Shown here: piece after piece, positions 7,843-53,400 of the stretch
Position numbering within the stretch: position 1 is the stretch's first letter
Layout: each line of letters starts with the position of its first letter
Assembly: GCA_009739215.1 (NCBI GenBank)
Contig: VSJF01000009.1
Location: 62,001-126,000 of the forward strand
Source of the DNA: Floccularia luteovirens
Taxonomy: Eukaryota > Basidiomycota > Agaricomycetes > Agaricales > Squamanitaceae
Direction of reading: 5' to 3'
DNA: 64,000 bases
The notes under the pieces: generated by a model
Databases searched by the model: none
Told to the model about the DNA's origin: nothing
Seen by the model: only the letters and a program-made list of their open reading frames with translations
Made by a program: the position numbers and the translations under genes

Positions 7843-10800
7843 TCAAAGGGAAGTGGGCTCTAGTGCGTCAGGTTTGAACCGCAAGCGAGCTAGTAGGACA
7901 GCCTTCCATGGGTCATCACAATTGGAGACTTTGTCGGCAAAAACTGGGGTGCTATCCAAAGATTCTTTGTAGGATGGACCCTCTCTGGTGAAGGAAGTTG
8001 CTACTTCTGTAGTGAAGGACCCCCATGGGGTGCCAGGTTTTGGAGACGAGAAAACATTGAAGTGAACCTGTTATAAAATTATCAACAATTAGAGTTTCAG
8101 AAGGCATGTTCACCGTGGCAACCTACTTGACTATCTGGGTGACTATGACTGACCAATAGAGCATATGTAGGAACATAAAGTGATCCGATGACTCGGACAA
8201 AAATTTAATACAGACAAAATATATGATTCAAATCTAGGGTTCAACTCACCAAAGTACAAATCTTCTTTCTGAATATTGTGTTCAACCCCATAAACTTCCA
8301 TTATAATTTCAATGTTAGTTTTAAGCCACAGCTTCGGAGCACTTAATTCCTCTACATATCGGTAATCAGATGTCTCAAGACACATATATGCTGCCTTGTG
8401 GCCAGCTCTCAATGCGAAAGAATAGCGCCGTTTGACCCTGAATAGTAATCGGAAGCATCAGTTCACTAACATTTCCGCAAGCACATAAAAGCCGTACACA
8501 GTATTGTCCCTTGATCTGACTCGCGCAATAAACGATTGTATGCCCCTTTTTTTAGAAGCTTTTCTGTCTTGACGCATACTTCCAGTTTTGACATCACCAA
8601 ATGCATTGACTGGGGAAATATTTTTGATGGCCGTTTCACTAGCCATATGGGGAGAAAAAGCATTGAACAATGTGACGAATGACCCAGAAGGTTTGGATAG
8701 ATAACCAATTGCACCAAGCTCTATAGATGATGGACTCCACAGTGGCAGTGTGACTTTTCACCTCATGTCAGTCAATTCAAATGAATTACGAGGAACAACA
8801 ATGACCACATACGCGAAGGATGATAATCATGGGTCAACAAAAGCCGATATCTTCGTTCATTTCTTCTCTCGGCCGCAATATCATAGATAGGAGGTGGCGA
8901 CGCCGAGTCAGCGCCTCCTGCGGTAGCAATTGTTGCACGGGATGATTCTGAGATAAGGTCACTTGAAATGAGGGACGAATGTTTCGCTATTTCCGGATTT
9001 ACTGGCTCAACAGTCCCGCCAGGAGCGTCATGGATTCCAAGGTTTGTTTGGTCAGCGATCGTCGGTATTAATGCATTATCTGTCGCAGTCATAATCCAAT
9101 TTTGGTTAGTACTGAAACCGTATGAACTTGGTGGCACCATACCAGAAGGATCTACTTCTGCTGGTAGACCGATTGCACGCATATCAGGGGAAGGACCTAA
9201 CGGGTGGTCTTGCTCCAGCTCTGGAAGATGTCGTGAAGCAGGGGTGTCCATCACTACAGGATTCGCATTGAGCGACCTGAGGTCAGCCATGACTTTCTGG
9301 AAGTTTGGGCGACGTTCAGGATCCATGTTCCAACACTTTATGATAATAGCTTGTAGCTCCGGAGTGTTGTATCGTGAGTTCTGAGGAAAACTCGGCCGCA
9401 CATTGTCTTTACAGATGGTCGTAAAGATGCAACCCAGATTGTCAAGAAAAGGAGAGAACGAACCAGCCACCATACTTTTCAAGTTATCTTCACCAACTGT
9501 GCCCCAGGGTAGAGACCCCATGTATAATATTTCCACACAGCATATTGCAAAGGCATAAACATCCATAGCTTGTGTCAGCTCTTCTCGACCTGCAAGAAGT
9601 TCTGGTGCTTGCCAGCCTAGAAACTTTGCTGTAATACAGAAGCGATTAACATGAATGTCGACGTGAGGGTGTGGGAATTACGCACAATGTGGTTTGGTCC
9701 CAGAGAGACTGTAGGATTCTCGTTTCATCTCGCTCTGTCCAAAATCGGTAACAACACATCTGACGTTCCCGTCTACAAGGATATTCGTACCCTACCTCAG
9801 AAAGATGAGTTTTTCTGATCTTCTTAGATGTATAGAAACTAACATTGAGATCTCCGTGCAGCACTCCTTGACAATGCAGATATTCCATGCCCTTCGCAAT
9901 ATCACTTATGAATGTCAACAGATTGATTTCCTCCACAGGGGTAGTAGCAGGTGCTTGAGGATGCTGACTCTCAACATTTCGCAGAAAGTCCGCAATGCAC
10001 CCATGTTCCATGAATGGGGTCACAAAGAACCATGGCGGCTGGCCAATCGCACTACTCGCACCACAAAGTGTTAAAACGTGCGAGTGCCTTAGCTTCGTCC
10101 ATTGTTGCACGGTACGAAGGAACAGGTCACGAGGTGTTGTAACTGAGATTACTGTGACTGCCACCGTTCCCGCATGCCAACGTCCTCGATATACAGTGCT
10201 AAACTCGTCTTTAGTAAGCTGCTTTTCCGTGTCGAGTTCGTATCTGACGTAATTGTTGAAATGTGGATATCAAATCAAAAATTGAAAGGCGTACTTCGTG
10301 ATTGTCCAGTTCGGGAGGTTAGTGTTACTGCCTTTACTCAAGCGCTGTAGGCATTCAATCCCATTCTCCAAAAACTCTAAATCGAGCGTATCCTTGGTAC
10401 TTGGTTCACTTGCCTCACGACTCGGAATGACATCTATCAGCCTTAGTATCGGAACCAACTGCTGACGGAGGTGTTTGAGATGCCCGAGCTAATTTCTTTC
10501 TCTGATTCGGCCTCAAGTGCACGCTGTAGAGACTTGGTGGCATCAGGAATCTCATCTCTGTGGATTTCTAAGATTTCCAGCATTTCCGCATCACTTCCAG
10601 CTTGGAGTGCCTTGCGCATAACCTCACGCAAGTCCGCCACATCCCAGGATCTATCTTCCGAGTTCTGCTTTGTGTGGATGGCTGTGAGTGTCGGAAGAAC
10701 ATCGGGTGGTAGCAAATCGGAAGGTCCTGATGAGATAACATGAGATATTATTTCAGGTCTTGCTTCGGGTGATGCTTGCTTGTCAGGCGGGACGGAGGAG

Positions 10801-11856
10801 TGACCCGCAGCAGTTAACTGTTCAAGCAGTAGCCGAGTTTCTTCTTTCCTCCTCCTGTCGCTATCTTGAACCTCGCGTAATATCCGTATCTGAATAGAAA
10901 GCTGAAAATAGGTTCATGTAAACTAGACAGATTTGCACACAATATCAATACAAACTTACACTAAACATTCCCAGCGCATCTCGAAGTTCAGCTTGACATA
11001 CTGCGATGCTCTCGTGAATTTCATTCCTCCCAAGATATCTCTTCAGGAATGGCAGATTAGCTTGTCGCAAGAAGAGAGCCCTTACATCAGCAAAAACACT
11101 TGAAAGTCATTCTGTATCAGCCACCATAGTATTATGTATTGTATAGGCTGGAAACACACCCTTCCAGTTTGCCTAAGGGAGCATCAAGTTCCTTTCCAAC
11201 ATAGTCTCCTGCGTCATGGATTTCCTGGCGTACTGAGAACAGAATCTCTCCACACCTCTCTGCAAGTCGAAGGCAAGCAATGCGATTTACCTGAAACGTG
11301 GTCACACCGTTCAGAGAAGATATCCCATTTCGGAAAATTACGCTCACCTCAATAAGGTCTAAGGCATCCCAAATTTGCAACAATATTACTCCAACTGCAC
11401 GCAGGCCAGGCACTGGTGCAAGACTCAGGAGATCAACTCCCGTATAGAGGGCTTCGTGTGCAATGTCTGCCGCTGTATCCAAAGTGGAAGCTACAGCTTT
11501 CGCAACGCACTGGGAGGCAATGTGAGCGTATATATGCGCAAAAGTTGGTCATAGAAAGAATGTAGATTTTATCTCGGACTGTAGATGAGAGGTGGAGATG
11601 ACAGAGAACGCAAACTTACTATTCGGGCATTATTCCATGCTACAGTATGTTCCGCAGAGGTGGTATTGTTTCGTTTCCGAGATTCTTGAGCGCGTTTCGT
11701 TGTTTCAACAGCACCGAAGCTATCCATATCAGAACGACCTTGAGTCGATAATACATTGATATTCCTATTGTGCTGAGGTCCTGAAAATAGTCTGGATCTA
11801 CGCGGAGGGAAAAAAACACGGTCTTCTGAGACTGGAGGAGCATCGAAAGAGTCCAT
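7843..11856 (-). CDS. MLKL/HeLo-like helical bundle, TKL-type pseudokinase and agaricomycete-specific C-terminal domain
   Basis: Fourteen exons joined by hand (11620-11856, 11348-11509, 11160-11290, 10960-11098, 10460-10901, 10295-10433, 9844-10243, 9686-9791, 9476-9628, 8813-9406, 8471-8753, 8250-8437, 8127-8191, 7843-8067) keep phase throughout and give 1087 residues. Residues 80-225 form a helical segment with the LAPVPGLRAVGVILLQIWDA signature shared with fungal MLKL-NTD-like proteins, followed by a coiled, charged linker. Residues 417-700 form a TKL-like kinase fold: WTITKYELD, then HGDLN (546-550), DFG (566-568), WQAPELL and MDVYAFAICCVEIL. The VAIK lysine is Thr447 and the glycine loop is gone. 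Residues 823-1087 form a domain seen mainly in agaricomycetes (LLLTHDYHPS, GAIGYLSKPSGSFVTLFNAF, RAGHKAAYMCLET, VIGSLY, VLLARLRFKPDALEPTSL-stop). Two proposed introns are only 26 and 33 nt. Function is unknown; a cell-death or signalling role is inference. Confidence 0.82.
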
Positions 11857-29178: not shown

Positions 29179-31002
29179 TTAATTCGAGGGTTCGAATCCA
29201 AACATCATACGACCTTCTTGGGTCTTTACATCTTCCAAAGTAGCCCGACCTGAAAACCTGGATTCACCTTCTCCCCCTGGAAAGTCGCTGTTTACACATA
29301 ATTAGTCCTTATACACGGCAAAAAGGTTTAATATATGCGTACGGTGCAGGTAGCCCAGAGACAAAGTTCTCTCGTTGGTCACGTAAGTAAACCCCACTGA
29401 AATATTAGATTAATCAGAATGTTTTTTATAGGCCATACTTGATTTCTTTACTTTTTCTGAGTGAAAGGAACAGCAGGGATATATAGGACAGAAGAGTCAC
29501 CAACACCCTGGTGCTGCGCCTCCACTGCATGTACCACGTCACAATGCCCTGGGAGAACATATCAAGCTGCTTGTAAAGAGAAAACACGATGGACCGGCAT
29601 GGGCTTACAGTATACTTGATCGCCAGGCTCTACCCTGGAGATTGACATCATCGTCTCATTAAGTCTCAAATGCGGATGCGTTTTCTCATTCAATTCTTGC
29701 GTCTTCCCGATGCTACTCCCGGGGAATGTGGAACTGTCAATATCGACTTCCCAGTCCTCGAAGCGCAGGGACGATGACAATGGATTGCGGGGACGGAAAA
29801 AACGGGCGAAGAATGATATAAGCGGTCGCAAGTGACAGCATGGGAAGAACTCGTAGGGTGCCTTCGTTAGGGCCCGTACTTGACAGTGACGTCCACCCTT
29901 GCCATGGCCGGAAGATGGAACACGCGTTTCTGAAACAACGTGGCAATCAGTAACACACAGTAGTTTAGCGCATGGGAGAGTCAAGTACGAAGTATGATCT
30001 AATTCGTGGTTAGCCAATGTTCTGGGCGTCGCATCAAATGGATTATGAGCTCTCCAGGAACTTCCTCCTTCAAGTATTTTGCCAAAAGCAGCACGAAACC
30101 CAGGGTCCTCCCAGCGTTCAGCAGAGCCCCAGTCGATATGTGGACCCAGTGCAAATTTGGCATCTCCAGGTTGCCGAATGCGTAGCCTATCAAAATAAGA
30201 GATAGGTGCGTTGAGGTCAATTTCCTCCTTCGGCTTTGATGTTTTCCATAGTGAAAGCAGTGCACGTTGAGTATTGACGATCTCGGGGTTTGTGCGGGCG
30301 GCAACTTGAGCCTTGGAGTTGTATAATTCAAACACCTGTATATTATCAGGAGGAAAACCTGTGTGTTTGTTAGAGATGGTTATGGGTTATCATGTTTTCA
30401 TATACACGTGCCTTTGACTTTGTCGACATTGTCATTGACGTATTGTTTGATGGATTCTTTCCATGATAGTGCTGTCTGTGTAGAGATATACAATTTAATT
30501 GATGTAGTAGTAGTTGTGAAGGTATACCTCTTTTTGCACAGCTCCAGTGATAACCACAACCCCCGTTGCTTTAATTTGATCCACTTGATCCTCCGTCATC
30601 CCATTCTTCACACTTGAATAACTCATTCGAGGGATCAACTACCATAGAAACTCTAGTCATTTGCTTGAATATACCAGTAGCAATAAGGTCACCCACATCT
30701 GTACGCTTCGAAGTTATCACTTCGACTGCTCCCTCCAGATCTCGTAACACCTCTCTCCAGCTCTCAACAAGCGAGTCTTTCCATAGACTCTTCTTCAGAT
30801 CAGCAAATCTCTCTGGAAGATGAGTGTGCTTCTCGTCCGTCAATGAAGTGAAGATAGACGCTATGGAGCCTTCTTCCCTAGGCTGTCTACGAACAGCATG
30901 ACTTGCTGCAAACCTCCTATGACTACGGGTTAATTTAGCCCTGATTGCGCAAAGTCCGGTCCTAGTATGGTTTGGAAACGTTGCTGGGGTGACATGCAAC
31001 AT
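29179..31002 (-). CDS. DUF1479 (YbiU-like) Fe(II)/2-oxoglutarate-type dioxygenase, apparent frameshift
   Basis: The start at 31002 (MLHVTPATFPNH) gives a basic, Arg-rich N-terminus that could target mitochondria. A TTG at 31014 is not a start. Family blocks follow: LPERFADLKKSLWKDSLVES, LIPRMSYSSVKNGMTEDQVD, IKATGVVVITGAVQKE, RLRIRQPGDAKFALGPHIDW with the HxD metal motif at 30132-30140, GSAERWEDPGFRAAF, CSIFRPWQGWTSLSSTGPNE, the distal His region YWHCDVVHAVEAQHQGVGDS, SVLYIPAVPFTQKK and the end DFPGGEGESRFSGRATLEDV running to FGFEPSN-stop (29179-29181). All junctions splice in phase except one place: at the six-A run 29797-29802 the frame must shift by one base to pass from AYIILRPFF to RPRNPLSSSL. 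The substrate is unknown. Confidence 0.82.
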
Positions 31003-46150: not shown

Positions 46151-49100
46151 TCACAACGTTATGTGTTGCTGTGGATGGGCAGAATAAAACCCATCACCAA
46201 TCCCTGCATGGGGAGCAGAACTCGGATAGTGCTGTTGTTGTTGTTGTTGCTGAGCTCCAAATTGTTCGTGTTCACCATAGATTACCGGCGCCGAGTGTCG
46301 ATGATTAGAACCTCCCGGTCCACCCGCACTGCCTCCCCCAAACTGCATAGGCAAGTCGATCGCATAAGGAGCAGGTGACTCGGTCTGTTGGAATGTCGAA
46401 GGCGAGTCGGTTCGATAGGAACTATCACCATACATAGACGTCTGATGTTGTTGGTCTCCCTGTTGTTGTTGTTGTTGTTGTTGGCCTTGTCCACCATCCA
46501 AAGAAATCCTCATTAACTGACTAATCTGCTCAGCGGGCACTCCAACTCCAGCCCCATGTGCACCGAAACTCGAGTTCCGCGACTCCGAACGACGCGGGGC
46601 GCCAACTTGCATAGAATATGCTCCTGGGCTAGATGATCCAGGCCTTGATGTAGTAGAAACAGTTCCGTACGGTGCGTAGGGATGGTATCCGCGTGCTGAA
46701 CTCATGCCGCTCGGCGAACCTCCTCCACTACCACCATTAGCACTTCCAGTTGGATTGGATACTGAGGCAGCAGCAGCGAGATCCCCATTACTAGCTGTCA
46801 TAGGTCGCCTAAGAGGTTGGTCCCCACTCCTGATTAGCGAAGGGGTCATGCTTCTATGCCTCCTAATCGGTCCTGTAGCGCCAGAAGCAACAGAAGCGGC
46901 AGAGGGAGAAGTCCCCGCAACCATAGAAGCAGGAACACCAGGAACGCCTGTATCCATCAAACCCAAGCCAGTAAACATCCCATTTTGATCGAACGACCGT
47001 TTATGTGATGGTGCAGAAATGGAAGTAGAGTATTCGTAATCATACTCGAATTCATCACCTCCGTATACGGAAGAAGCTGCAGAAGACGACGTCGAATGGG
47101 AAGGTGTGTGATGGCGCATTGAACTAATGGAGCGATTATTTCGAATATGTTGTGCATAGGTGCCATTATGTGGTCCGGGGGGTGGTGATGGTATGCTGAC
47201 GGATGAAAAAGCTGGACTAGGTTGCGGCCGTGACCACTGCGCCTCTTGCGTAAAATCAGAAGGACCGATTCCGTTTCCCGACGAGAACATCATGCCATTT
47301 GTTGGTGCAGATGGGTTGCCAGACGAAAAGGAATAAACATCTTGCCCGCCGCTACCAGAATTGGCACCTGCACCACCTTCTTGTCCCGATTGGACACCAA
47401 GTGGTTGTTCAGAACCGTCCCGTACATCAGCTTCGCGCATTTGCATATCTAGGCCGTCCATAATCCCAAAGGTATTCAGAGGCATACCCATTCCAGGGTT
47501 AACACCAAGGTTCATAGAGTCCATGTCCATAGTTCCAGGCGCATACATGCCACCCGAGTACCCGACCATACCATGTACACCTTCATCTTCACTCTCGCCT
47601 TCACTCGCATGCCCGCCACTACCTCCACTGCCTTCTTCACCTGTATCACCATCTTCTTCACCCCAATCAACTATACCACCGTTCATGTTAGCACCAGAAT
47701 TCAAACCGGCACCGCCCGAGCCGTTACTAGAAGAAATACCAGACATCCCTACACGCTCGTGGGTGCGCAAGTGCTGGTTCAAGTTATCACTCCTTGAGAA
47801 TCGTTTCCGACAACGCGTGCATGCAAAAGGTCTCTCCAGCGTATGTGTACGTAGGTGTCTCTTGAGGTGTTCCATTCGTTTGAACAGTCGTCCGCAAGTT
47901 TCAAGGTGGCACACGAAGGCCTTGGTTTTCCCGTCGACGACTTCATAGACAGAGTTATTTGATTCCACGGTTTGCTGCTGAGGATGCAAGTGAGATTGTG
48001 TCTGCGTGAACGGGGCAATGCCATTGCCATCAAAACTCCCAGAGAGGGTAGGATGCTGTAGGACGGGGCCGGGATATGAGTGACGGTGCAAATGAATATC
48101 TCCGAATGACGACTGTGGTTGGATCGCATGGTCTGGGTTCCCTTCGCTATAATATACTCCGACCTCTCCCACACTGCTCTGCATTCTTGGTTTACGAACG
48201 ACGCCATCAGCAGGAACGAGTTGGCCATGAGCTTGTTTGATGAACATTTGCGCAGCAGTCATTGCATCATCCGCATCGGTCTTGATATGAGGGCCAAACT
48301 CGTCCATCATACTAGGGTGGACTCCCATCATACCCATATTCATACCCATACCCATAGGGCCTCTCTCTCGACTGACACTCGCGCTACTTGCAGCATAGCG
48401 GCCACCAGGTCCTAGACCTGTGCTCCTCGCTCTTCCGCGTTCGTCCATGAGATCTTCACTACCTCTTCTAACCAAGCTGCCAGGATCAGGTCCACCCATT
48501 TTGGCATTCCTCTTTCTTCTCTGTTTATACCGTGAGCTCCCTTCGAATAGCGAAAACATTGCAAAGACGGGTGGCTCATTAGGTCCCCGGACACCCGACA
48601 CGCGTTTCTTCCTCCGTTGAACACTAGAGGGAATATCGCCGTCGCCATCTTCGCTGTTGCTCACACCTTCACTCTCGTCTGCGGGGTCGCCAGAGCCTTG
48701 ACTCGAAACACCTTCCATAGCCATAGAATCTTCACCATCTATGCTCCCGGTTTCCGTTGCGCGACGTACAGCAGCTTCGAGCTCGCCTTCCCCTTCCCGC
48801 GCGCCTTGTGCCTTACTAAATTGTTCATAAAGGCTCTTCTTCGGATCATAGGTAAATGAAAGGGCAGGTTCGCCAACGACTTCAGTTGTTGGCGCCATAC
48901 CCATCTTCTCGCGTTTCAGATCACGTTCGAGTGCATCGAGAAATAGCCGATCATGCGGTACCGAAAACCTGGAGAGGATAATTGTAAGATTGATCGGAGT
49001 TTTGATGCGAAACGTGCAACAAATGTTTTGAAGAAATGATAGGAGAGAGGGGAAACTTACCAGTAAAACACTTTTTGCTTTTTCTGTGTACGTATGCATT

Positions 49101-50441
49101 GATACTTGAAGAGTAGATCCAAGAAAGGACTCTGAAGCAGAGGGCTACATGTCAGTAATCTGATAGACAACAGAAGGAAAGAATGAACGAGAAAAACTGG
49201 TGGAGAAAGTCAGGAACTGGCCGCTAAGGGGCGGTCAAGACGTAAATACCCATTATGGCTGCCAATAGGAAAGCATGTGGCCTCATATATACAATACGGA
49301 AGGGACGTAAGCAGGTCGACTGCTATATGAATAGCGAAAGAGTGAAAATTTTCGAGTTCACCCCACCCACTTGTCTCCCAACCACCTCAAGACAACTACG
49401 TGGCCGAAAAAAAATTTCTTTCAGCTCCCGTCCCATCACTGCGCAGGGAACACGACATATTCACATGTTCCAACAACAGAACCAAGAAGAAAAAGGATAC
49501 AGGGAACTCACCTTGGGGTCTTCCAAGCATGCATCAACTCCTGGCTTCAAATTGCGCAGATCACTGAACACGCCCTCCTCGAATTTTTTCATGTTGCGAA
49601 CGGGACGCCCAAAAGCCTAATTAAAAAATGCAAGTTCCAGCAAGCAGTTTTCAATTTCCGAGGACGGAACAAAAATAGAAACGGAAAGACAAGAAGGGTG
49701 TGTAAAAGGCGAGGGAAAACATCCACTCACCTCGAAGCGAAACACGAGGGCTCTTACAATATCTGTGCCAGTGATATGATAGAGGCCATTCCACAGCACA
49801 CAAGTGACAAACTCTTGTGAAGGAAGGAGGAACCGGTTGAGAGCAGGATGAGGCGGTGCATGGTAAGCAGCAGCGTTTCCAGTAGTTCCTGGAATTGCAG
49901 AGTCGCCAGGATATGCATTGCCGAACTGGGAAGAAACAGGAAAGGAATTGGTGGACGATGATGCAGAGGCTGCAGATCCCGATGAATTCGGATTAGTCGG
50001 TGATGCTGACGAATCCCATCGTGATGGAGCGGTTGCAAGAAAAAATTTGAGTTTATCTAGATGTGCAAGACGCTCCCGCTCATGTGGCTTCAGAGGACGA
50101 GAAAGACCACCGGTGATACCAGCAGCAACACAAGAGAAAGGTTCCTCATTGCTCGGCTCTGTTGATTCCGAGTGGTCTGGTTCTGGAGCATTGAGTGAAG
50201 CAAGGGAATGGTGGAATTGGATGTGGGCATGTGCGTTGCCAGGTCGTGCGGTACGCTCGTTCGGATCTTGGTCGTGCAGTGACGAGGTTGAAGTGCTCAC
50301 CTGGAGAGGAATTGGGGCGGAGAAGGAGTAGGAATTCTTTTTCGAGAGAGGGTAGGCTGGAGAGTAGGAGTAGGAAGAGACATCGAGAGATGAATGGAAA
50401 GAACGGGGAGAGGAATTGTCGGAGTAAATCTGTGGATCCAT
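46151..50441 (-). CDS. STE12: STE12-type homeodomain-like / C2H2 zinc-finger transcription factor
   Basis: Ste12 acts in the nucleus downstream of the Fus3/Kss1-type MAPK cascade in mating, filamentation and development. Four exons (49731-50441, 49512-49616, 49061-49131, 46151-48968) join in phase to 1234 residues. The STE DNA-binding domain (about 200-310) spans all four exons: [76 protein letters not shown] and [20 protein letters not shown]. Two tandem C2H2 fingers (about 649-700), [20 protein letters not shown] and [20 protein letters not shown], give the basidiomycete STE12-alpha-like plan absent from yeast Ste12. The rest is low-complexity (Ser, Gly, Met-Gly repeats, two poly-Gln runs near the C-terminus). 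The start at 50441 has no upstream in-frame Met nearby. Confidence 0.95.
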
Positions 50442-53400
50442 TAGAGGGAGAAGTAGACGGAAGAGAAGAGGTTATAAAGAAATTAAAAGAGATTGTGACG
50501 ATGTGAAATAGATGATGGGGGAAGGGGAGAGAGCACTGTCCTTACTCGTTTGGTAACTTTTCAATCCAACCAAATGACAGCTGGCCGGCATTACCATTTC
50601 TCGGTCCGTCTTTTCGGGGTTACCGTTGCTCTCCGATTACGATCCGTTTCTGCCGCACTTTTTTCTTTTATTTTGCATGCAATGTCATTCTCACTGCCTG
50701 CAATTTGATCTGTTTGATATTGCACGTATCGTACTCCCTCACACCTTACTCTCTCCCTTCCTACATATTTCCGATACAGTACATTGATTTCATCACTTCC
50801 TTCCAGGCTGTGTCGATCACCGCCTCTTCTCTGCCATCTCCCCTTCAAGCCCGACGGTTCGACCCTGCATCCCCATCTTTCGTCATCTCAAATCTGCACA
50901 AAGTCCATGTACCCATATGTTCTTTGCGATTCTTTGCACCCAATACCGCCATTTAGACTATTTTTCTCCTCAACTCATTTCCGGTCGGACATTCAATCCC
51001 TTATCCATGAATCTGGCTCTCCCTTCCGGCCTTTTGGCTCCCAGCCATCAACTCAGCCATCACAAACGCATGCTATTTCTCAACTTCTTATTGAGATCTA
51101 GAACCTGAAATGTAAACGATCATCCCATCACCTATCACTCACAAAATGACATGGAAGCACCACACTCGGTGCAATTGGCTGTGCAAGCCAACCTTCCGTG
51201 ACACAAATACACACATTGCTGACTGAGTTTTTTCACGCGACGGACGCTATGAATCCCCTCCATATTCCCAGGTATAATACTAAATGTCTCTCACAGCCCT
51301 CCAGGATTGCCGCATGTATGCATTCCACATTTAGAATTCACTGAACCTTTCCTTCCCCTTATGATGGTCGGCAAGCCAACTTACCTTTTTGACCCAACGC
51401 TGTCCATGTACGCATCAATTTAGTAAGGCAGGTTCATCTAGATTCTTTGTTTCTGTCAAGTCATCCTGCTAAGTACTTAACACCAATGGTTCTTCCACTA
51501 GAACAACTGTGGAACCCGAAAGTGCGTTCACTAGCTACCAGGTTCATCATCTTCAGGTCATCATATCTCACGTCTTAATTGACCGCAGCAGGCCGAACAT
51601 CGGTTGGTAACTACCATATTACCCTATTTCTCTTCCTTCTTATCAATTCAGCAGTCAACCTGATAGTTAGGCTGCAGTTGAGGGGAGAGAGGGCGGAGGG
51701 CGGTGTTTACGAAACCAAGTAACCCCTCACCCCAATTAAGAAGCCTAGCCCTCGCCTGCTTCCACGTTCATCCCATAACTTGAATAAAGATAAGGTTGAT
51801 CGATCATCAAGAACAAAGTCGGCTTACCCTAGACCGAGATACAAACTCATCGGCTAAGTGAAGGTCTCGTTGCTACTGATTGGAAACATTAAACTGCTGA
51901 TGTTTAACGTTATCCATCAAAATTCAAAAACAAATCTCCCTTTACTATCTTGTCTCTATGACTCATGTTGGCTATCTACATACTATGCATCAGCATATGG
52001 AGCAGCCCCATCTCCGCATCACAACGTACGTCAACGTTGCTATCCATTGCCATCAATCCCATCAATATCCTCATCATAAGTAACCGCCGACGAACTCCCT
52101 CCTTCCCTCCCCACTCATCTTTCGGCTTTTTCCTTGTTTTTCCCACCGCTCGGCATCTAATTCCAATGCGTCAGTCCGCACTTTCATGCACCGGAGATGC
52201 GAAATGGTGGAATAGTATAATAGTGTGTGAGTTACTGATAAGAATGATCAAAAAAAAAAGAGTTCTTATATCCATTTCATTCAGATTTGATACATGTTAA
52301 GAACCCACACACTAACGTATATATCAGGTATGTTTCGACTTTTCAAACACGATCGGGCCTGGATGGATTGCGACACAATCCCATGGGCGTATGTATGCAA
52401 CTGTTGATTATAAAAAAGTCACCCCTCCCCCAACCGCATTAGTACAACCTGACCTGCCAGCATGAGTTTGGTCGAGATATTTTTGTGATATAGATCTTTT
52501 GGAGTGTATCACATGAACGTATGAGCTTGTTCTGCCAAAAAATATGAATGTGCTTCTTTTACCCTGTCAACTTCTATGACAGCGGAACGATAAACGACCG
52601 TATGCGAAAGATTCTGGTCGTAGGCGCTTCATGCCCTTTTTACTCACGATGGAAATAAGTCATACATATGTATATGGTGGGTGTGCGATAAGATATTGTT
52701 CGTTGCATACTTACATTCATCATCATATGTATCATAAAACATCTTCGCAATGAATGTAGCAACCAGATCTTTTTTTTCACATATTCGTTAATGGTTTATC
52801 AATACTTGGGGATGGAGTAACAAAATTGCGAAATCGGTACTTTTCTGTCACAAATTTCGCCAAAGGGGTGGATGGAAGAAAATGTCTACTCATTGTCACT
52901 GTTTTCTCAATATAGAACTCCGCGGTACCTCAATATATATTATATATAAATCAGTATCAACTCGTGCCCCTCATGCTTTCGAAGTTTGTTTCTAATTCAA
53001 TAAACAACCTGGTTGAGCAAAACAAAGGCATAATCTATGGACACCGATTCATGAAACCCGCGTACACGGGTATAATTAAAAAGTTAGCGGGGGAGGCGGT
53101 GATCCACGAGCCTCGCAAATAATCAATAATCAATAAATCAATAAATTTCCCCCCATCATCAAACAACTCAACGTCCAACGCCCAACCGTCCAACATCCCA
53201 ACACTCACAACACTATTTGTGCGGCCGCCATCATCATTTCTTGACACCAAAAAAATTTGAATAGACTTTTTGTTTGGTTGTCTCTTTGATTTCAGAAACT
53301 GAGTCTTAAGTCCGGTTACATATCTTTTCTGCATATGCTTTGTGCCAAGTCCCCTGAATTAGTTAGAACGTTTGCATCAAAAAAGTGGTTTCGAAGCACC

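Follow-up and report, generated by a model that had tools for sequence, protein, structure and literature searches.

Gene structure

The window analyzed here, a 64,000-nucleotide stretch of Floccularia luteovirens (assembly GCA_009739215.1, contig VSJF01000009.1, positions 62,001 to 126,000), carries on its minus strand a multi-exon gene (7843..11856, ATG at 11856, stop at 7843). By prediction, its protein joins an MLKL-type helical bundle, a kinase-fold domain that lacks the ATP-binding residues and a C-terminal domain with a gasdermin-like fold. The coding region was delimited by hand splicing, by profile-guided spliced alignment and by matching its intron positions to those of the genome's two other family copies, paralogues A and B. 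Judged by homology, the gene is real and lies on this strand: 68 of 108 family matches span at least 90% of the query in one local alignment, which far exceeds chance.

All parts named here lie on the minus strand, and residue numbers follow the 1092-residue, 13-exon model. Exon 1 (11620..11856) encodes an N-terminal tail, residues 1–79, with no predicted domain. Exons 2–4 (11348-11509, 11160-11290 and 10960-11098; span 10960..11509) encode the helical bundle, residues 80–223. Exons 5 and 6 (10467-10901 and 10295-10413; span 10295..10901) provide a helical connector from the bundle to the kinase, with a variable linker (residues 224–404). The kinase-fold domain occupies 9270..10306 (residues 405–695), and the C-terminal domain (residues 833–1092) is spread over exons 8813-8861, 8498-8753, 8250-8437, 8127-8191 and 7846-8067 (span 7846..8861).

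Two joins in this model deserve comment. Spliced by hand, the gene fell into 13 pieces, separated at 11 junctions by ordinary GT-AG introns of 51–110 bp; the reading frames failed to meet between pieces 5 and 6, where an enumeration of introns of 34–160 bp found no strong site. When the sequence was aligned, with splicing, to a profile built from 108 relatives, the gene came out free of frameshifts by way of a putative 53-bp intron (10414..10466, minus; GTCAGC...GTGAG), and a frameshift was therefore rejected as the sole way to join exons 5 and 6. This putative intron sits in the linker, which varies greatly among the relatives. Its donor at 10466, GTCAGC, is weak; this donor also begins a conserved intron in paralogue B. 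The second join concerns a 57-nt stopless stretch (9407..9463, minus), probably an intron, whose place and phase are those of an intron that A and B share. Its removal leaves 14 exons and 1073 residues; if it is retained, the model has 13 exons and 1092 residues. The spliced alignment did not take it as an intron at penalties of 14 and 10; at a penalty of 6, it chose a 69-nt version with the donor 12 nt upstream of that of the 57-nt version. We prefer the 57-nt intron because its place, its phase and the length of the preceding exon (165) agree with paralogue A, and on this comparison the model of 14 exons and 1073 residues is the most likely one. The first-pass annotation had placed a gene of 14 exons and 1087 residues here; the gene, its placement and, in the favored model, its exon count hold, whereas the residue count becomes 1073 or 1092.

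A family of agaricomycete kinases

With the full protein as query, 116 proteins were retrieved, of which 108 are full or partial relatives from agaricomycetes or metagenomes; the weak matches P0109–P0116, to other kinases, were excluded from the alignments. The best relatives share 43–44% identity over most of the window query, and the Coprinopsis relatives P0068, P0074 and P0092 are named TKL/TKL-ccin protein kinase. By homology across the bundle, connector, kinase and C-terminal domain, the window gene is thus assigned to this TKL-ccin-named agaricomycete kinase family. The conserved C-terminal domain described in the first-pass annotation likewise has homologues. As a query it retrieved 240 proteins, and 119 of the 120 matches listed have a kinase domain by Pfam, the exception being P0146 of Hypsizygus marmoreus; the named organisms among the matches listed are agaricomycetes, where we take their genera to belong. 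With the C-terminal domain alone as query, 94 matches of 143–459 residues were recorded, most of them on short metagenome contigs, and no clear standalone family was apparent. A search of the viral library returned no match at E≤0.001.

The co-occurrence of the three domains, which that annotation had raised, is frequent. In an alignment of 161 proteins, the window gene and the two paralogues, the bundle, kinase and C-terminal domain stand together in 152 of 164 rows; the other 12 rows hold bundle and kinase only (9), kinase and C-terminal domain (1), the bundle alone (1) or bundle and C-terminal domain (1), all these counts being biased toward the queries used. The last of these is P0146 (750 aa), which has lost the kinase and retained the bundle and the C-terminal domain, showing that at least one lineage can do without the kinase. 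Separately, P0101–P0103 of Dentipellis combine bundle and kinase without the C-terminal domain and have WD40 repeats among their Pfam domains; in P0101, these repeats come first in the protein.

Predicted folds of the bundle and the C-terminal domain

Structure prediction used alignments of 67 and 87 sequences. In the fold search, the whole-protein model of a relative, P0025, gave only kinases among the rows listed, and for this reason the kinase-less P0146 was modeled. The predicted fold of the P0146 bundle matches the MLKL executioner domain, and the VIA match to MLKL extends into the connector part. Pfam MLKL_N was matched by 25 of the 39 family members scanned (E≤0.01), and the window copy scores 18.5 bits at residues 124–239, under the cut-off of 27. 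From the predicted fold and the profile matches of relatives, residues 80–223 are an MLKL-type helical bundle, as the first-pass annotation had proposed for residues 80–225. Sequence comparison with PDB gave no match for the bundle profile at E≤1 and only two unrelated weak chains for the single bundle sequence at E≤10. The bundle is preceded by 79 residues in the window copy and by a median of 160 over 163 rows; a few rows have 0–2 residues there and may be incomplete gene models. In P0025, helix prediction begins just before the bundle. A further MLKL_N match lies elsewhere in the same genome (L001, L028; C1:714660-715001, minus; 31.4 bits, over the Pfam cut-off), within a long open frame that continues differently downstream.

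For the C-terminal domain of the confident P0146 model, the eight best PDB chains are all gasdermins, from six entries, and fungal RCD-1 is among them. The VIA alignment to gasdermins covers 161–171 of 228–233 residues across the whole domain, and no other fold family spans this part among the 50 rows listed. In the model, the C-terminal domain thus resembles a gasdermin fold. It also closes the protein, with 0–1 further residues in 161 of 164 rows. In place of the extra C-terminal sensor domain suggested earlier, this part may be a second domain of the membrane-attack type.

Loss of the ATP site in the window copy

The kinase domain of the window copy matches PK_Tyr_Ser-Thr at 1.6e-41, in agreement with the TKL-like kinase fold recognized at first pass. 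Its ATP site is altered at several positions, all on the minus strand. The G-x-G of the G-loop is replaced by T418-K419-D420 (10207..10215), the ATP-pocket lysine (VAIK) by T438 (10153..10155) and the alpha-C glutamate by T452 (10111..10113). The catalytic loop reads HGDLN, where the family has HGDLK (9844..9858), with the aspartate kept and the lysine changed to N541. The HGD and DFG aspartates are retained.

Of the 163 relatives, 162 keep the first G-loop glycine (1 gap) and 161 keep the second (1 threonine, 1 gap). The ATP-pocket lysine is found in 161, with 2 gaps that include the kinase-less P0146, and the alpha-C glutamate in 162 (1 gap). A replaced lysine or glutamate occurs in 0 of 163, both same-genome paralogues included. 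We counted departures from columns at least 95% conserved, using for each domain only the rows that hold it. The window copy departs at 1 of 19 bundle columns, 0 of 20 connector columns, 13 of 79 kinase columns and 4 of 57 C-terminal domain columns, the last four being V-I, G-A, Y-F and F-L. In the same columns, paralogue A departs at 0, 1, 4 and 2 positions, respectively, and paralogue B at 1, 1, 11 and 17. The concentration of losses in the ATP site gives p 0.0026, for eight positions picked after the alignment was seen.

Collectively, the window copy has lost its ATP site while the bundle, connector and C-terminal domain stayed conserved. By its residues, it lacks the catalytic set of an active kinase that the family carries and is a lineage-specific pseudokinase within a family that is itself predicted to be an active kinase. 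Since the relatives keep the catalytic residues, the family architecture is a bundle with a predicted active kinase, and the dead kinase appears to be a change of the window copy. The pseudokinase of the first-pass annotation is correct for the window copy, which lacks the ATP-binding residues, and does not extend to the family as a trait, since both paralogues are among the relatives that keep these residues.

Duplication and phylogeny

The genome (27 Mb, 22 contigs) holds three copies, namely, paralogue A (C21:1135292-1138919), paralogue B (C22:926882-930486) and the window copy. The lengths of exons 2–4 (162, 131 and 139) are identical in all three, taking the hand model for the window copy, which indicates that the copies arose by duplication at the DNA level. 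In trees of 51, 50 and 28 hand-picked rows, A clusters with sequences of Cyathus and Crucibulum, B clusters with Crucibulum, and the window copy sits on a long terminal branch (0.81–0.97) with no firm position. Taken alone, the clustering of A and B would make a bird's-nest fungus the probable source of the genome. Each placement of the window copy was compared with one alternative tree in the approximately unbiased (AU) test: grouping with P0130 of Crucibulum gave a p-AU of 0.744, grouping with B and P0107 gave 0.868, neither being rejected, and grouping with paralogue A and P0141 was rejected (0.0234).

Paralogue B keeps the G-loop, lysine and glutamate and has a drifted C-terminal domain, making it the mirror image of the window copy; P0107, which groups with it, has no C-terminal domain. 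Crucibulum laeve also has three family copies (P0130, P0141 and P0107), of which P0141 groups with A and P0107 with B. P0130 may match the window copy and has a complete catalytic set. In the last exon of paralogue A (L022 near 5420), the frame breaks in a loop of the C-terminal domain, through an assembly indel or in reality.

These observations bear on whether the window copy is instead a pseudogene, the decaying remnant of an active bundle–kinase–gasdermin-like gene. Such decay would fit the loss of catalytic residues, the long terminal branch, the broken frame of paralogue A and the join at 10466–10414, which needs a weak-donor intron found in neither paralogue. However, the GTCAGC donor is in use in paralogue B, and apart from this join there is no other stop or frame break in approximately 1090 codons, where a frame as long as this one, free of selection, should gain 23–69 stops at 0.2–0.6 changes per site. 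The losses are, moreover, concentrated in the ATP site, whereas the bundle, connector and C-terminal domain columns are kept. We consider decay improbable and less likely than kinase-controlled membrane activity.

Neighboring genes

Of 16 window frames of at least 170 aa, 10 were scanned. The matches are to a cytochrome P450 (24139-24654, plus), a Gig2-like protein (29562-30386, minus), a C2H2 zinc finger protein (46154-49144, minus) and an STE-like transcription factor (49620-50471, minus). No protease match was found in these 10 long frames, a scan from which introns hide genes.

Discussion

The window copy is like MLKL of animals and plants in that a helical bundle, with a predicted fold matching the MLKL executioner domain, is followed by a kinase fold without ATP-binding residues. 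The mushroom family differs from MLKL in that the bundle is not N-terminal, extra helices precede it, a gasdermin-like C-terminal domain is added and the family kinase is predicted to be active. The BaMLKL domains of fungal NLRs described by Wojciechowski et al. 2022 (PMC9815663) share with it an MLKL_NTD-type bundle that in basidiomycetes has one more helix at its N-terminus, yet they are attached to NLRs, whereas here the bundle is attached to a TKL kinase; both occurrences of the word "kinase" in that article's main text fall in the reference list. A 2025 review (PMC12881547, section 20) mentions in a single sentence that HELL domains co-occur with kinase or pseudokinase domains. The fungal gasdermins RCD-1 and HET-Q1 (PMC12881547, PMC10197012 and PMC11760362) resemble our family in the predicted fold of the C-terminal domain. 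RCD-1 is described there as having 244–257 residues, whereas here the domain ends a long bundle–kinase protein, has no inhibitory tail behind it and gave no match at the sequence level; PMC12881547 describes fungal gasdermins as small proteins, usually beside protease genes. The TKL/TKL-ccin kinases of Coprinopsis and other agaricomycetes are direct homologues but retain the catalytic residues. In the open-licence literature, we found no description of a bundle or gasdermin-like domain in TKL-ccin kinases and no report of a bundle, a kinase and a gasdermin-like domain in one protein.

Based on these comparisons, our tentative preference, held at somewhat short of even confidence, is that the gene product belongs, as a kinase-dead protein, to an agaricomycete TKL family with the bundle before and the gasdermin-like domain after the kinase, and that it may act as a kinase-controlled membrane-active protein. 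The computations establish the gene structure, the three-part architecture, the loss of the ATP-binding residues in the window copy alone and the conservation of its other domains; membrane attack and cell death we infer from the predicted folds. At rest, the kinase module and linkers would keep the protein inactive. The signal that releases the bundle, the gasdermin-like domain or both would in the simplest case be trans-phosphorylation by a family member with a predicted active kinase, of which the same genome has two, paralogues A and B, and the released domains would oligomerize at a membrane. The outcome would be regulated cell death or compartment lysis in defense, self/non-self recognition or development. 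Because the kinase of the window copy is predicted to be unable to act on itself, this copy would be the partner that is switched, in the role that MLKL has toward RIPK3.

Several points weigh against this proposal. Since neither paralogue has an intron at 10466..10414, the join there may instead be a frameshift or an assembly indel. Its internal position sets the bundle apart from those of MLKL and HET-S and makes it a weaker candidate for direct pore formation. For the C-terminal domain, the best gasdermin E-value is 1.7e-3 and the TM-scores are low. Profile searches of each domain, as suggested at first pass, recovered the kinase in the window copy and MLKL_N in its relatives, and no Pfam or PADLOC family names the C-terminal domain; its profile against PDB sequences (E≤1) found two weak unrelated chains and no gasdermin. 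These low TM-scores and the lack of a sequence link would suit an unrelated alpha/beta fold with a coincidental gasdermin match, in which case the protein would be an MLKL-like bundle fused to a kinase, a combination already mentioned in print for fungi. We regard this as rather unlikely, given that the first eight chains are gasdermins without exception, that the alignment runs over the whole domain and that no competing fold family covers it.

Given how widely the family is conserved, a role in development without cell death is a serious competing explanation. With the same architecture, the protein could be a membrane-associated signaling or scaffold protein of mushroom development, with the bundle and gasdermin-like domain used for docking to the membrane or for assembly and the kinase used for signaling; the window copy would then be a pseudokinase with a regulatory task. 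This would agree with the wide and fairly even conservation across agaricomycetes, with the tail that precedes the bundle and with the kinase-less P0146, which keeps both flanking domains. In addition, a table line in PMC4082614 places one TKL-ccin gene, a candidate family member, in a conserved fruiting-body set, and other developmental studies list TKL-ccin genes or phosphosites, again with candidate membership. Both flanking folds are, however, best known from membrane attack, and we hold the scaffold role to be possible but less probable than kinase-controlled membrane activity.

A bolder form of the membrane-active reading, which we find distinctly doubtful, is a dual executioner of agaricomycetes, in which a necroptosis-type bundle and a pyroptosis-type gasdermin domain would stand in a single chain under their own TKL kinase. 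Duplication in this fungal lineage would have been followed by a split, with a live kinase and a decaying gasdermin-like domain in paralogue B and a lost kinase and a retained gasdermin-like domain in the window copy, so that a RIPK3–MLKL pair would be recreated inside one gene family.

Non-self recognition and cell death in basidiomycetes have fewer molecular handles than in ascomycetes. If the proposal is true, an agaricomycete-wide family in which a kinase is combined with two executioner-type folds would bring machinery of the necroptosis-like and the pyroptosis-like kind together in a single protein, and the window copy would be an independent example of how an active kinase attached to an MLKL-type bundle turns into a pseudokinase. 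The mirror-image loss in paralogue B and the window copy makes a RIPK3/MLKL-like division of labor testable.
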